From Arenibacter sp. P308M17 (GTDB lineage Bacteria > Bacteroidota > Bacteroidia > Flavobacteriales > Flavobacteriaceae), in NCBI RefSeq assembly GCF_003426735.1, contig NZ_QVON01000004.1, forward strand, positions 372,001 through 436,000: a stretch of 64,000 nucleotides of DNA, given 5' to 3'. The position numbers and the translations under genes were made by a program. Under the pieces are notes generated by a model. The model was not told the DNA's origin and did no database searches. It saw only the letters and a list, made by a program, of their open reading frames with translations. Within the stretch, counting starts at the first letter, position 1. Each line of letters opens with the position of its first letter. Positions 5,544 through 60,575 of this stretch are shown here, piece after piece.

Positions 5544-5684
5544 TGTTATCTGCCACGGATACTGTAAAACAAACCATAATAATCTGGTCCAGTACTTAGG
5601 TAGAATTTAGCACCTTCTTTAACAAATAATCAAAGGGTTGCTAAGGCTTCAAAGGGTCTATTCCCTCCACCTTTCTTGATAACA
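5544..5684 (-). ncRNA. SAM-I (S-box) riboswitch
   Basis: Read on the minus strand, the 141 nt show the SAM-I core almost unchanged. P1 starts GTTATC (5683-5678) with the kink-turn segment AAGAAAGGTGGAGGGA; then come CCCTTTGAAGCC and TTAGCAACC (the P2 closing side and pseudoknot strand), GGTGCTAAATTCTACC (P3) and a P4 with TACTG/CAGTA. P1 closes with GATAACA (5550-5544), giving seven pairs with TGTTATC. The S-box senses S-adenosylmethionine and lowers expression of methionine genes. Its target here is metY and, by read-through, the metX-thrA fusion. Confidence 0.93.
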
Positions 5685-5713
5685 ATTCAATAAGTGTTTG
5701 AACTTTAGATCTG

Positions 5714-7017: not shown

Positions 7018-7105
7018 AAATCCTTTCAATATAAAATTATTGGGGATTTGACCAAGCACACTAGAGAAGATCGGATGTTACAGTTCCAACGGAACAGAAC
7101 AACTT

Positions 7106-7180
7106 AAACTGCTTTAGCATTTAATTATGCCGAAACCAATTCAGCACATGAGGTTGCAATCAGTCAAATCCTTCCTCGAT
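7106..7180 (-). ncRNA. SAM-II riboswitch, long-loop variant
   Basis: Read on the minus strand, GAGG (7177-7174) pairs with CCTC (7153-7150) as P1. The enclosed loop GATTTGACTGATTGCAA is nearly the invariant SAM-II loop, and TTAAATGCTAAAG (7123-7112) is the invariant 3' strand. The pseudoknot pairs are ACTG (7164-7161) with CAGT (7111-7108), where classical SAM-II has CC/GG, and GCA (7157-7155) with TGC (7119-7117). Between P1 and the 3' strand sits an extra six-pair hairpin, TGCTGA/TCGGCA (7146-7128), which is the long-loop character. The target is metK, 89 nt downstream. Confidence 0.88.
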
Positions 7181-7192
7181 ATTTTTCGCGTA

Positions 7193-15353: not shown

Positions 15354-15504
15354 GGAAATAATATATCATGATTAGGAAGTAAACAATTAAAAATACCTCA
15401 AAAAATACTATGCATGCATAGTATTTAAAAAAATTATTGAGTATATTAGCCACCATTTCTTAATCAACGGTCAACAAAATATTATCAGATGAAATATCCA
15501 TTAG

Positions 15505-15598
15505 CAAAATTTTCAAACCTCCCGATAATTATCGGGACGAAAATGATTATTTGGACATTACATCTGACCGATAAAAAAACAATAAATATAAACAGATG
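15505..15598 (+). repeat. Duplicated 5' leader, copy X1 (empty site)
   Basis: The stretch upstream of etfB shares several blocks with 42921-43033: GATAATTATCGG, ACGAAAATGATTA, CATTACA/CATTGCA, TCTGACC, and the A-rich run up to AACAGATGAAA including the start codon. Here CATTACA is followed directly by TCTGACC; in the other copy a 22-nt palindrome separates them. Confidence 0.7.
15521..15536. repeat. CCCGATAATTATCGGG palindrome, copy 1
   Basis: A perfect 16-bp palindrome, also found as a 14-bp core at 42932-42945 and with one extra base at 60398-60414. Confidence 0.8.
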
Positions 15599-16342
15599 AA
15601 AATTTTAGTATGCCTAAGTAATGTCCCGGACACTACTTCAAAGATAAACTTCACGGAAAATGACACCAAATTTGACACCAATGGGGTGCAATTTGTTATT
15701 AATCCGAATGATGAATTTGGTCTCACGCGCGCCATGTGGTTCAAAGAAAAGCAAGGGGCCACCGTACATGTAGCTACTGTAGGCGAGGCCAGCACCGAAC
15801 CAACCATTAGAAAAGCGCTCGCCATTGGTGCGGATGAAGCAATACGTGTAAACGCAGTTCCCCTAGATGGTTTTTTTGTGGCCGAGCAGTTGGCAGAAGT
15901 TATCAAGAACGGGGAATACGACCTGGTAATAGCCGGAAGGGAATCCATTGATTACAATGGTGGCATGGTCCCCGGCATTTTAGCCACTTTGTTGGACATG
16001 AACTTCGTCAATACCTGTATAAGTCTGGAAATCGAGGGCAACAATGCCACGGCTACAAGAGAGATCGATGGCGGTAAGGAAAAGATAGCGACCACCTTGC
16101 CATTGGTCATCGGGGGACAAAAAGGCCTTGTTGCCGAAAGCGACCTAAGAATTCCGAATATGAGGGGAATTATGATGGCACGCCAGAAAAAATTGAATGT
16201 AGTTGAACCTACTACATCCAAAAATGCCACAACAGATGTTAAATTTGAAAAACCTGCCCCAAAAGGCAAGGTAACCTTAGTGGATGCCGATAATATTGAC
16301 GAATTGATCAATTTATTGCACAACGAAGCCAAAGTAATCTAA
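15596..16342 (+). CDS. etfB: Electron transfer flavoprotein, beta subunit
   Basis: A 248-residue ETF beta subunit, which binds AMP and forms the ETF heterodimer that carries electrons from acyl-CoA dehydrogenases to the quinone pool. Supporting features are MKILVCLSNVPDTTSKINFT, NPNDEFGLTRAMWFKEKQGATVHVATVG, the adenine-nucleotide loop AGRESIDYNGGMVPGILA, and TTLPLVIGGQKGLVAESDLRIPNMRGIMMARQKKL. It precedes etfA by 128 nt on the same strand, so the pair is probably one transcript. The 5' leader is a repeated sequence shared with the anti-sigma-like gene at 43028. Confidence 0.95.
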   Translation: MKILVCLSNVPDTTSKINFTENDTKFDTNGVQFVINPNDEFGLTRAMWFKEKQGATVHVATVGEASTEPTIRKALAIGADEAIRVNAVPLDGFFVAEQLAEVIKNGEYDLVIAGRESIDYNGGMVPGILATLLDMNFVNTCISLEIEGNNATATREIDGGKEKIATTLPLVIGGQKGLVAESDLRIPNMRGIMMARQKKLNVVEPTTSKNATTDVKFEKPAPKGKVTLVDADNIDELINLLHNEAKVI

Positions 16343-17479: not shown

Positions 17480-17650
17480 ACTAGTGTTTAGTCAATGTTT
17501 AAACAACGGTTAAGGAATGATGGATCTTGAGTTGGGCCAAGGCGCAAAAAACGAGCATAGCCGTAGGCTACGTAAGGATTTTTGCAACGCAGGACCGGCT
17601 CAAGGGACACTTTAAATTACCCGTAGGTTTAGGCTTGACTGAACACTTGG
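17480..17650 (+). mobile_element. MITE-like element, copy C (diverged)
   Basis: This has the same architecture as copies A and B. The left end CTAGTGTTTAGTCAATG and right end TTGACTGAACACTTGG form a terminal inverted repeat. The centre has GGCCAAGGCGCAAAAAACG, CATAGCCGTAGGCTACG and TTTTTGCAACGC. TTGAGTTGGGCC near the middle pairs with GGACCGGCTCAA. Most of the sequence differs from A and B but the pairing is preserved. Confidence 0.65.
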
Positions 17651-38493: not shown

Positions 38494-38994
38494 ATGAGTA
38501 AAGTAGCCGTAGTAATGGGAAGTACCAGCGACCTCCCTATTATGCAGGAAGCCATAGACATACTAAAAGGTTTTGATATCGAAGTTGATGTTGATATTGT
38601 CTCTGCCCACCGTACCCCGGAAAAATTGTTCGATTTTAGCAAGAACGCCCATAAAAATGGGTATTCCGTAATCATTGCCGGTGCAGGGGGCGCTGCACAT
38701 TTACCCGGAATGGTGGCTTCCATGTCCCCGCTACCCGTTATAGGTGTTCCCGTAAAAAGCAGCAATTCCATTGATGGGTGGGATTCCATCCTGTCCATTC
38801 TCCAAATGCCCGGTGGTGTTCCCGTAGCTACCGTAGCCCTTAATGGCGCAAAAAATGCCGGAATTTTGGCCGCCCAGATCATTGGAAGCGCTGATAAATG
38901 TGTCCTGGATAAAATCATTGTTTACAAGGAAGGCCTGAAGCAAAAAGTCATTGACGGAGCCGAGGAAATGAAAAAAGTGAACAATCTACAATGA
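38494..38994 (+). CDS. purE: 5-(Carboxyamino)imidazole ribonucleotide mutase
   Basis: A 166-residue mutase that moves the carboxylate of N5-CAIR to form CAIR. It carries VVMGSTSDLPIMQEA, the SAHRTPEKLFDF loop with the catalytic His, and AGAGGAAHLPGMVASMSPLPVIGVPV. Presence with purK shows the bacterial two-enzyme route. The heptamer array lies immediately after the stop codon. Confidence 0.97.
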   Translation: MSKVAVVMGSTSDLPIMQEAIDILKGFDIEVDVDIVSAHRTPEKLFDFSKNAHKNGYSVIIAGAGGAAHLPGMVASMSPLPVIGVPVKSSNSIDGWDSILSILQMPGGVPVATVALNGAKNAGILAAQIIGSADKCVLDKIIVYKEGLKQKVIDGAEEMKKVNNLQ

Positions 38995-39057
38995 TCAATT
39001 AACAATTAACAGTGAACAGTGAACAGTGAACAGTGAACAATTATCAATTAACAATTA
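38995..39057. repeat. Heptamer array (nine units)
   Basis: Nine consecutive 7-nt units: TCAATTA, ACAATTA, four identical ACAGTGA, ACAATTA, TCAATTA, ACAATTA, with no spacers. It starts at the first base after the purE stop codon. Read as CARTRRR-like words, it resembles the reverse complement of the 7360-7415 array. Confidence 0.85.
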
Positions 39058-39114
39058 AAGGTCAAACTTTCAACTTTCAACATTATAACTTTAAACAAAA
39101 ATACAATACCCTTT

Positions 39115-42136: not shown

Positions 42137-42144
42137 TATTTTTG
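42137..42144 (+). promoter_or_regulatory. -7 box of ECF sigma gene (TATTTTTG)
   Basis: This is an exact TAnnTTTG, 16 nt before the start codon chosen at 42160. It makes the upstream start at 42142 unlikely. Confidence 0.5.
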
Positions 42145-42159
42145 AAACGACAAAGAGGT

Positions 42160-42720
42160 ATGGCAAAACAAGAATTAAATCCGGACATATGGGTCGATAG
42201 TTATTCCGACTACCTATTCAACTATGCGGTAAGCCGGGTAAGCGATTCTGAAATTGCCAAGGATCTGGTACAGGAGACTTTTTTTGCCGGATTAAAGTCG
42301 GCCAAAAATTTTAAGGGGGAGGCGGCAGAAAGGACCTGGCTGATCTCCATCCTAAAAAGGAAGGTAATTGATCATTATCGCAAAATAAATTCCAAAAAAG
42401 CAAAATCCATGGTCCGAATCACCCAAAACCAGAATAGCGAGGCAGATAGCAACTATTTGGAGGAACAGGTGGCGGACCCTATGAGCTTATTGGAAAACAG
42501 CCAAATAGAAAACGAAGAGTTGGGCATGGCCATACAGCACTGTATCGCCAAGCTTCCAAAAAAACACGCTTTGGCATTTACCCTAAAAACCATAAACGGA
42601 CTCAGTACCGAGGAGGTATGTAAGGAGCTGGATATCAATCCGTCTAACCTTTGGGTCATCCTGCATAGGGCTAGAACGGTTCTTATGGATTGCCTAAACA
42701 ACAATTGGTTCAAGATATGA
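42160..42720 (+). CDS. ECF-type RNA polymerase sigma factor
   Basis: A 186-residue sigma-70 family protein of the ECF group. Region 2 is YLFNYAVSRVSDSEIAKDLVQETFFAGLKSAKNFKGEAAERTWLISILKRKVIDHYRK. Region 4 is LPKKHALAFTLKTINGLSTEEVCKELDINPSNLWVILHRARTVLMDCL, with a helix-turn-helix for -35 recognition. Regions 1 and 3 are absent, as expected. A small ZAS-type protein lies 307 nt downstream on the same strand and is the likely partner. The spacer between them is filled by mobile-type repeats. The start MAKQELNPDIW was chosen by promoter position. Confidence 0.93.
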   Translation: MAKQELNPDIWVDSYSDYLFNYAVSRVSDSEIAKDLVQETFFAGLKSAKNFKGEAAERTWLISILKRKVIDHYRKINSKKAKSMVRITQNQNSEADSNYLEEQVADPMSLLENSQIENEELGMAIQHCIAKLPKKHALAFTLKTINGLSTEEVCKELDINPSNLWVILHRARTVLMDCLNNNWFKI

Positions 42721-42728
42721 AATGCCCA

Positions 42729-42744
42729 CCTGTCTGCCGGCAAG
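42729..42744. repeat. Truncated CCTGCC/GGCAGG palindrome
   Basis: CCTGTCTGCCGGCAAG is the left three quarters of the 20-22 bp palindrome. It ends exactly where MITE-like copy A begins, which suggests interruption by that element. Confidence 0.45.
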
Positions 42745-42910
42745 CTAGTGTTTTGTCAATGCTACTGTGTCGTTTAAGTCGCGGTTATTTTTTATCTGGC
42801 CAAGGCAAAAAAACGTTGCATAGCCGTAGCTACGGAACTGTTTTTTAACGAAGGCCAGGTGAAAAAGAACAAGACTTGGGATGGCTAAAGTAGGGTTGAC
42901 AGGACACATA
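42745..42910 (+). mobile_element. MITE-like element, copy A
   Basis: A 166-bp non-coding unit between the sigma factor and anti-sigma genes. Left end CTAGTGTTTTGTCAATGC and right end TTGACAGGACACATA form an imperfect inverted repeat flanked by TA. The interior holds CTGGCCAAGGCAAAAAAACG, CATAGCCGTAGCTACGG and TTTTTTAACGAAGGCCAG, which fold into a long imperfect hairpin centred on GTAGCTAC. About 94% identical, by eye, to copy B at 11473-11637. No transposase is present, so any movement would need a transposase in trans. Confidence 0.75.
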
Positions 42911-42931
42911 GGTTAACAACTTGCAAAACTA

Positions 42932-42945
42932 CCGATAATTATCGG
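42932..42945. repeat. CCGATAATTATCGG palindrome, copy 2
   Basis: Fourteen-bp core of the palindrome at 15521-15536, inside leader copy X2. Confidence 0.75.
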
Positions 42946-42972
42946 CACGAAAATGATTAAAAAGGCATTGCA

Positions 42973-42994
42973 CCTGCCTGCCGGCAAAGGCAGG
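42973..42994. repeat. CCTGCC/GGCAGG palindrome inserted in leader X2
   Basis: A 22-nt unit starting CCTGCCTGCCGGC and ending AAAGGCAGG. Comparison with the empty leader at 15505-15598 defines both of its ends. Confidence 0.8.
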
Positions 42995-43027
42995 TCTGAC
43001 CATTAAAAAACAAATAAATATCAACAG

Positions 43028-43255
43028 ATGAAAAGCTGTAAGGACGTTGAAATAATCTGTACTAAAGCGCAGTACAAGGAAGCCTCCTTCCTGGAGAAAA
43101 TAAAGATAAGACTGCATCTGTTTTTTTGCAAAACCTGTAAAACTTTTTCCAAAAAAAACACTGAACTAACCACTCTCTGTTCCCAAGCCAAAATCAGGAC
43201 ACTTCCGGTTGAGGAAAAGGAAAAGATGAAAACGGAGTTAAAATCAAAGATTTAA
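43028..43255 (+). CDS. Small ZAS-type anti-sigma factor candidate
   Basis: A 75-residue protein starting MKSCKDVEIICTKAQYKEAS. It has His30-x3-Cys34-x2-Cys37 (HLFFCKTC), the exact spacing of the zinc-binding ZAS motif, plus an upstream Cys11. No TM segment follows, so it would be a soluble, minimal anti-sigma. Gene order (after an ECF sigma) supports this. The 3' end overlaps the convergent membrane-protein gene by 12 nt. Such short proteins are hard to name by similarity, and a zinc role other than anti-sigma is possible. Confidence 0.72.
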   Translation: MKSCKDVEIICTKAQYKEASFLEKIKIRLHLFFCKTCKTFSKKNTELTTLCSQAKIRTLPVEEKEKMKTELKSKI

Positions 43256-59313: not shown

Positions 59314-60341
59314 TATTTATATACTATCTCCCGCTCTGGGGCATTAATAATATCCTGCAAAACCGGAGCGGTCTTATTTACCAATAAGGCCAAATGTTCA
59401 AAATCCATTATGGCAACCTCATCGCCAACCTTATGGTAGTGATCAAAGTTGGTAAAATCGAAGGTGCAAAAGGTTTGGGAAGGTACCCCGAACTCCAAAT
59501 GAAACGGATAATTATCCGATCTCTTAAATAGATTGTATTCCTTTGCCGTTGGAAGAAATCCAACCAATTTGTCCTGGGCATAAGAATTGCATACATCTGC
59601 CAAATTAGATTCCTCATAGCCCGTAACATACATAAAATAATCCTTCCCGATCAAGGGAACTCCAACCATTTCAAAATTTAACATGGCATAGAGATCCAGA
59701 TTTTGATCCTTTAGCCTTTTGGCCAGGTGTTTCGACCCCAAGAGGCCCTTTTCCTCTGCACTGAACAGGGCAAAGATAATGCTGCGTTTATTGTTTCCAT
59801 ACCTGCCAAAATAACGGGCAAACTCCAAAACAGCGGTAGTGCCGGAGGCATTATCATTGGCTCCATTGGCAATAGTATCACCGGACACAGGCCCTGCAGT
59901 GCCTATATGGTCATAATGGGCACCAATGATAACGAATTCGTGTTTTAATTGTGCGTCCGTACCCTCAATAAAGCCCACTAAATTGTATGCCGGTTTTTCA
60001 AAATTGGTCAATGTATCCCTATAACTTTTAAAGTAGGGCACCACTTTATTGTTATTAAAAATCGTTTCTATATATTCGGCGGCCATTTCTATTCCTTCGC
60101 TCCCGGTTTCTCGTCCATGAAGTTTATCGGAAGCCAAATATGAAATTACTTCCCCCACTGTTTTTCTGGTGGAAAAGAGGGAAACTTCGGAAGAAACTTC
60201 CATTTTTCCCGGAGCTAGGGCGGCATCCTTGACAATTGCCCCGGAACCATCGGCACTTTTTGCCGGACCTACCTCATCAATTTTAGTGCCAGCGCAACCT
60301 AAGGCAATGGATATTAGGGCAAAACCAATAATGTTTTTCAT
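59313..60341 (-). CDS. M28 family metallopeptidase lipoprotein
   Basis: A 342-residue lipoprotein with lipobox ISIALGC (Cys16). Di-zinc aminopeptidase features are GAHYDHIG, GANDNASGTTAVLEFARYF, FALFSAEEKGLLGSKHLAK and SDNYPFHLEFGVPSQTF. Family members trim peptides from the N-terminus in the periplasm or outside. It is the first gene of the M28-SDR-HAD operon. Confidence 0.93.
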   Translation of the reverse strand: MKNIIGFALISIALGCAGTKIDEVGPAKSADGSGAIVKDAALAPGKMEVSSEVSLFSTRKTVGEVISYLASDKLHGRETGSEGIEMAAEYIETIFNNNKVVPYFKSYRDTLTNFEKPAYNLVGFIEGTDAQLKHEFVIIGAHYDHIGTAGPVSGDTIANGANDNASGTTAVLEFARYFGRYGNNKRSIIFALFSAEEKGLLGSKHLAKRLKDQNLDLYAMLNFEMVGVPLIGKDYFMYVTGYEESNLADVCNSYAQDKLVGFLPTAKEYNLFKRSDNYPFHLEFGVPSQTFCTFDFTNFDHYHKVGDEVAIMDFEHLALLVNKTAPVLQDIINAPEREIVYK

Positions 60342-60397
60342 CTGTTCATTTTTATTGTTATAAATAGGTCAAATGCGATTCGCCATTGAACATATCG

Positions 60398-60414
60398 CCC
60401 TGATAATTATCGGG
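60398..60414. repeat. CCC(T)GATAATTATCGGG palindrome, copy 3
   Basis: Same core as the copies at 15521 and 42932, with one additional T in the left arm. The flanks are not shared with X1/X2. Confidence 0.65.
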
Positions 60415-60575
60415 AAGTATCAACGATTTGTTATGGCTCATTTCATAAATTGTTTTTTTATTTGTCATTTAAGCGAATTGAATTTTATATATCCATTCTG
60501 TATTTAAAGTAAATATGACCAAGTAACCACTAATGCATTATATATCCCCTTCAAGAACCGGATAGGGTTTAAAGT

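Follow-up and report, generated by a model that had tools for sequence, protein, structure and literature searches.

Does a palindrome of 22 nt move through the genome of Arenibacter sp. P308M17 as a unit of its own? The question arises at positions 42973..42994 (plus strand) of a 64,000-nt stretch of that genome, here called the window, where CCTGCCTGCCGGCAAAGGCAGG separates CATTGCA from TCTGACC in the leader of an anti-sigma factor gene (X2). In the related leader of etfB (X1, 15489..15601, plus strand) CATTACA abuts TCTGACC and the palindrome is missing. The original prediction took the two as the filled and empty versions of one duplicated leader. Palindrome and flanks are as it described them, and an alignment of X1 with X2 spans 117 columns and has a single 22-nt gap (68% identity including the gap, E 5e-12). 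The interpretation did not hold up: X1 and X2 are very probably separate insertions of a mobile element, small and non-coding, that occurs in Bacteroidota and settles at start codons; congeners have neither of them. The mobile unit is the leader as a whole, and congeners lack it, so comparing X1 with X2 cannot show insertion of the palindrome. We regard the leader as a mobile element on the grounds of its presence and absence among congeners, the word ATGAAA at both junctions, re-insertion in tandem and two covarying helices. Its mobility is well supported.

The palindrome and the leader that contains it

X2 with its nested inserts (42717..43033, plus strand) lies between a gene for an ECF sigma factor (42142..42720, plus strand; Pfam Sigma70_r2 and Sigma70_r4_2) and the anti-sigma factor gene (43028..43255, plus strand; NCBIfam antisigmaE, E 1.7e-13). 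Its left ATGAAA is at 42717-42722 and its right ATGAAA, where the anti-sigma gene starts, at 43028-43033. The palindrome is nested in the 5' arm of a helix that we call P2, splitting CA from TCTG. X2 also departs from X1 in its head, ATGAAATGCCCA, and in a further insert of 184 nt (42729..42912, plus strand) with inverted ends near CTAGTGTTTTGTCAA and TTGACAGGACACAT, whose boundary was set by comparison with another locus, L372. This insert belongs to a MITE-like repeat whose inverted ends are near CTAGTGTTTWGTCAA; a relative lies at about 17481-17649. Elsewhere in the window, the spacer at 38973-39065 holds a tandem repeat of the AACAGTGAACAATTAA type.

Five or more copies of the palindrome had been claimed. 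The exact 22-mer occurs once in the window, the others being looser palindromes near 556, 49972, 56727 and 63497; genome-wide, the 22-mer or a variant with at most three mismatches occupies 54 places, against none for a reversed control. Exact or near copies sit in the same leader slot at L003, L004 and L008 (by eye), and 30 of the 54 places, inspected by eye, include at least three repeat contexts besides the leader. Sequence comparison showed two further slots of the leader element to be occupied by other small palindromes. Inside two other kinds of dispersed repeat (L006-L014 and L017-L030) the CCTGCC palindrome, or a variant of it, forms a module, and some of the first kind have an additional GC palindrome next to it.

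Support for palindrome gain comes from another leader, C12:14403. There our genome alone has a 27-nt palindrome, CCCGCCTGAATGAAGTAGTCGGGCAGG, between ACA and TCTGACC; its ends resemble those of the 22-mer without the two being identical. The same leader is found in G003, G006, G007 and Arenibacter sp. ARW7G5Y1 with ACA abutting TCTGACC and no palindrome. ARW7G5Y1 is G007-like at this locus and may be the same genome, so that three or four other genomes lack the palindrome, which favours insertion. The prediction of clean insertion of short palindromes is thus supported at C12:14403, but not at the etfB and anti-sigma spacers, where congeners lack the entire leader. No target duplication is visible at the palindrome slot. 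The alternative put forward with the original prediction, that the palindrome is ancestral and X1 a deletion product, is unlikely. Many copies in our genome do have a palindrome in the same slot; against this stand the three or four genomes without it at C12:14403 and palindrome-free copies across the class, which mostly span 90-100 nt (the covariance model R1, introduced below, and the search pattern both favour such copies). From these comparisons, the CCTGCC palindrome behaves as a separate mobile module nesting inside the leader element, and the short GC-rich palindromes in general would be separate inserts that settle there. The palindrome resembles the short palindromic repeats of Volvox organelles, which are small as well and thought to be selfish; the CCTGCC palindrome differs in being bacterial, and the leader element itself is not of that kind.

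Insertion of the leader element at ATGAAA

Many copies of the element are built alike. ATGAAA comes first, then a variable stretch that contains a hairpin, then ATTACATCTGACC, followed by an A-rich tail and ACAG, and last a second ATGAAA that is the start of a gene. The usual length is 90-110 nt. In X1 the left ATGAAA lies at 15489-15494 and the right one, the etfB start codon, at 15596-15601 (plus strand). A minimal copy of about 45 nt at C2:62943 in our genome reads ATGAAACTTTCATGTGACC, ending in CAG and ATGAAA, and four congeners have no such copy.

Searching the genome with the X2 leader at E <= 10 gave 65 matches, some being just its small palindromes. A covariance model, R1, was built from 64 copies of other Bacteroidota. 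Its alignment, A1, kept 64 of 87 candidates, and the conservation of its tail partly reflects selection, as members were fetched by a tail pattern. R1 gave 53 matches in our genome at E <= 1. Three of these lie in the window, at 15490-15601 (plus strand; X1, E 2.6e-11), 42936-43033 (plus strand; X2) and 60336-60445 (minus strand). The last is a third copy (60336..60446, minus strand; E 7e-10) before an M28 peptidase-like gene (start 60341; Peptidase_M28), whose orthologue in G014 (L361) has no element. Merging R1 and tail matches gave 64 right ends, from which three pieces or false matches (C1:861791, C20:325243 and C21:53575) were removed, and one end, C1:170196, was replaced by the true end, C1:170283 (ORF 139). 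The resulting catalogue of 61 right ends includes weak model matches, the weakest with an E of about 0.6. At 52 of the 61 an ORF of 60 aa or more begins; the other nine comprise three directly before another element, three before a second repeat family and three without a clear gene. Eleven downstream proteins were checked and are mutually unrelated: LeuB, SerC, GalE, glutamine synthetase, TrkA, a P-II protein, MsrA, YaaA, EtfB, the anti-sigma factor and the M28 peptidase.

The second repeat family has units of about 180 nt and, like the leader element, ends at start codons (L037, C24:28624-28804; L306, C22:153436-153623; L072, C22:61317). It is often found adjoining that element. A unit of this family consists of ATGAAACRAGYATTAA, a short ORF, a terminator-like GC hairpin with a T run, and TTTAAACGT directly before ATGAAA.

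The orthologous sites of congeners are mostly empty. At etfB, all 17 congeners lack the element and read from the flank directly into ATGAA. At the anti-sigma gene, all 12 have GAT or AAT joined directly to ATG, and our genome is 311 nt longer. The sigma factor's TGA stop codon (42718-42720) overlaps the anti-sigma start in congeners; in our genome it sits in the left ATGAAA of X2, which thus still provides the stop. We queried 32 of 35 selected further element-bearing loci in G014 and G007 and found an orthologue in at least one of them for 30. R1 detected no element in the orthologues at 26 of the 30; at the remaining four an orthologue carries one (656708 in both genomes, 14403 and 161608 in G007, and a diverged copy at 672953 in both). 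A strict junction test asked for a match of at least 20 of 30 nt in the native flank that ends at the left ATGAAA. With one or both congeners, 13 of the 30 loci passed it; the 17 that did not include four where a congener carries an element of its own. At leuB, for example, GCAAGAATAA is joined in our genome to ATGAAACATCC, followed by the rest of the element and a CAC that abuts ATGAAATTA; in G014, GCGAAAATAA runs directly into ATGAAATTA. An additional set of seven out of 10 loci, six with orthologues, yielded two more empty sites that are clean by eye (170283 and 647012). G013 has a copy of its own (L372) at a site that is empty in G014, G002 and G007.

At C20:525205/525310 two elements stand in tandem where both congeners have a single ATGAAA, as expected if every insertion re-creates its target. 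One junction departs from the rule: the left flank of X1 is TTATCAG, where congeners have TTAATAT or similar, so this junction is not accounted for by ATGAAA duplication alone. The odd flank may be a relic of an earlier copy, which is a guess. The base before the target showed no pattern with subfamily (by eye, uncounted).

In the window ATGAAA occurs 95 times, with 80 sites within coding sequence, eight at or near starts and seven elsewhere, two of the seven being element heads; these counts are too small to judge a start-codon preference firmly. Insertions at ATGAAA were mostly seen at gene starts, which may be preferred over other ATGAAA sites.

Two covarying helices and the spread of the element

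Two helices recur in the family. The first, P1, is a hairpin at the left end (in X1 15493..15559, plus strand, with arms at about 15493-15500 and 15552-15559), present in the minimum-energy RNA fold and in family covariation. In A1 it scored 0.221, against at most 0.051 when slid; cells with changes on both sides numbered 64, and at most 11 after sliding; none of 500 shuffles did as well. Inside X1 we noted by eye a palindrome, TCCCGATAATTATCGGGA (15520..15537, plus strand), which is missing from some copies, for example L066.

The second helix, P2, pairs an internal CAT[N]TG with CA[N']ATG at the right end. In X1 (15561..15598, plus strand) it joins CATCTG (15561-15566) to CAGATG (15593-15598), which holds the start codon, and it too is found both in the minimum-energy fold and in family covariation. 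The search pattern behind A1 had fixed both arms, so P2 was judged from an alignment of R1 matches, which is fitted to the model, though the arms adjoin nearly invariant letters. At the variable pair (151-219; 59 rows, about half from our own genome) we counted C-G 33 times, A-U 11, G-C 11, U-A twice, U-G once and unpaired once, so that all four Watson-Crick pairs are represented. The whole structure scored 0.312, and sliding reduced this to at most 0.044. The minimum-energy fold of the X1 RNA has both P1 and P2; that of X2 has the folded palindrome in place of P2. In the minimal copy at C2:62943, TTTCAT is an exact match to ATGAAA, but P2 has a G-G mismatch at its variable position. The right end of the element has no ordinary hairpin, just the long-range P2, and the left end has P1.

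By DNA matches, the element occurs in 20 of 31 relatives, including all 18 of the genus (our genome included). In a sample of the class, R1 at E <= 0.001, with the best 14 candidates of each genome scored, matched 53 of the 295 genomes, from 32 of the 156 genera, again counting our own. A pattern scan of named genomes found at least 118 stretches; among the matches listed (80 titles) nearly all are from Bacteroidota, and the Verrucomicrobiales and Treponema records among them look like chance. Of 120 right ends among the matches listed, 97 open an ORF of 60 aa or longer, 21 a short one, and two run off the contig. In one genome, G305, leader elements stand in tandem at two loci (L437 and L396), spaced by about 93 nt, and one of the groups is near a Y1_Tnp gene.

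Rfam gave no family at the element, either in the window (gathering scores) or at 14 loci (E limits of 5 or 1); in the window it does place SAM and SAM-II riboswitches at 5577-5685 and 7104-7183 (minus strand). The parts of the literature covered by our searches (start-codon insertion, Bacteroidetes repeats, REP/RAYT, bypassing) contain no description of such an element, which may be printed elsewhere, and the passage on Bacteroidetes in PMC3733652 was of no help with it.

How the element may move

We judge the element to be structured and non-autonomous. Its insertion at ATGAAA leaves it between two copies of that word. The gene would then start at the right copy, with the A-rich tail as its new leader, and could thus survive the insertion; the target would be re-created, and further copies could stack. 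TTACAT is nearly complementary to ATGAAA, with one A-A mismatch (by reading), and the internal TTACAT[N]TG may act as a guide, pairing with CA[N']ATGAAA on the right and, almost completely, with the ATGAAA on the left. As a single strand, whether ssDNA or RNA, the guide would fold both ends together for an enzyme acting in trans, somewhat like the 'peel and paste' of IS200/IS605 elements. We offer this single-strand guide mechanism tentatively, as somewhat less probable than not.

Among known systems, IS200/IS605-like single-strand transfer would fit the observations best because of the fixed word at both ends, the single-strand structure and the pairing of ends with a guide; the element is a candidate member. 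Non-autonomous derivatives of that family are called PATE-like. They share with our element the lack of terminal inverted repeats, a fixed target word, a structured single-strand end and similar words at both ends; the end word of ISDra2, for instance, is TTGAT. Unlike them, our element has just the long-range P2 at its right end in place of a subterminal hairpin, no cognate Y1 gene was found at the Y1 loci examined, and it lands on and re-creates start codons.

A specific form of this idea, in which a Y1 (HUH) transposase moves a non-autonomous IS200/IS605-type element in trans by recognising P1 and cutting each end 3' of ATGAAA, is possible but rather doubtful. The identical target-like words at both ends, the left hairpin and the pairing of internal guide and right end all suit it, as does the occurrence of Y1_Tnp matches, three in our genome and others in 10 of the 12 further genomes with the element. 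PMC6006769 describes Y1 subclasses of Bacteroidetes in which terminal structures are atypical or absent. Against it, no Y1 gene was found with element ends: R1, which would miss ends split by a gene, revealed no convincing copy enclosing the transposase around 33 Y1 loci, the best being two near-tandem copies in L437 (E 0.002 and 0.005) beside a Y1 gene, and the flanks of 14 Y1 genes, inspected by eye, mostly bear other palindromes. Two genomes have element matches without a Y1 match: G253 (100% complete), with at least 13 element matches and neither PF01797 (Y1) nor PF00078 (reverse transcriptase), and G261 (78% complete).

A link to a REP-associated Y1 transposase, which had been suggested for the palindrome, fared no better, since the three Y1_Tnp loci of our genome bear other palindromes (by reading). 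When these loci were searched for words of the element and read, it appeared only at galE, beside the Y1 gene of L031 (C1:829715-833059). That gene has an in-frame TAG and lies 3' of galE, whose start bears a leader element that includes a CCTGCC palindrome. The Y1 loci examined gave no support for the genome's own Y1/RAYT as the obvious owner. REP and REPIN sequences are likewise small, dispersed, non-coding repeats with foldback; our element differs in ending at gene starts with hexamer copies and in that the Y1 genes of its genome bear other palindromes. A GTAG-type tag 5' of the hairpin is absent, the word beside P1 being TGAAA in A1, an alignment so chosen.

MITEs are also short and non-autonomous, with constant ends and direct repeats at the junctions (here ATGAAA). 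Terminal inverted repeats are lacking in our element, as its ends, YGAGCC and ACAG, are not complementary (by reading), and unlike MITEs it has the same target word every time and two covarying helices. We also looked for an autonomous version. Among the 120 right ends from the matches listed, 16 had no TGAAA in the 130 nt upstream, and none of these had a type-A-like head within 4 kb upstream; ends less than 130 nt from a locus edge were skipped, and several of the 16 are degenerate or match by chance.

An RNA element copied by reverse transcriptase with target priming, a bacterial analogue of SINEs, is improbable. The element lies in a presumed transcribed leader and both helices would suit an RNA, but PF00078 has matches in only six of 13 element-bearing genomes (one match in our own) and is absent from seven. 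The tail-only candidate at C23:257380, considered as a product of truncated reverse transcription, was rejected as a 5'-truncated insert because the A-rich leader already exists in congeners.

More improbable still are cis-regulatory RNA leaders, start-codon-masking hairpins kept by selection and spread mainly by gene conversion. The conserved pairing does cover the start codon, and 52 of 61 copies lead into ORFs. Yet the 11 downstream proteins are unrelated, congeners have no copy at 26 of 30 loci, no Rfam family matches the copies tested, and gene conversion is not expected to give exact hexamer junctions. Ribosome bypassing was rejected, as the second AUG is usable and AUGAAA is not consistently followed by UGA. 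Inserts with hairpins between repeated words are also a feature of T4 gene 60 and of the bypassing elements (byps) of mitochondria; unlike theirs, the second word of our element is a usable start codon, so the ribosome need not hop.

We return to a mobile element that would carry its own guide. Chances seem to us evenly balanced that it represents a new class of mobile element across Bacteroidota, one with a self-complementary guide for ATG-AAA, a single orientation, a new start codon and structured leader supplied on insertion, and a re-made target that permits stacking. If this is true, 5' leaders have been rewritten across a phylum. Repair of the start codon on arrival would explain how insertions could pile up before core genes such as leuB, serC, galE and trkA without being lethal. 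Gene-start prediction may suffer, the left ATGAAA being a false start. If the element does target start codons, it would be a natural source of new 5' leaders.
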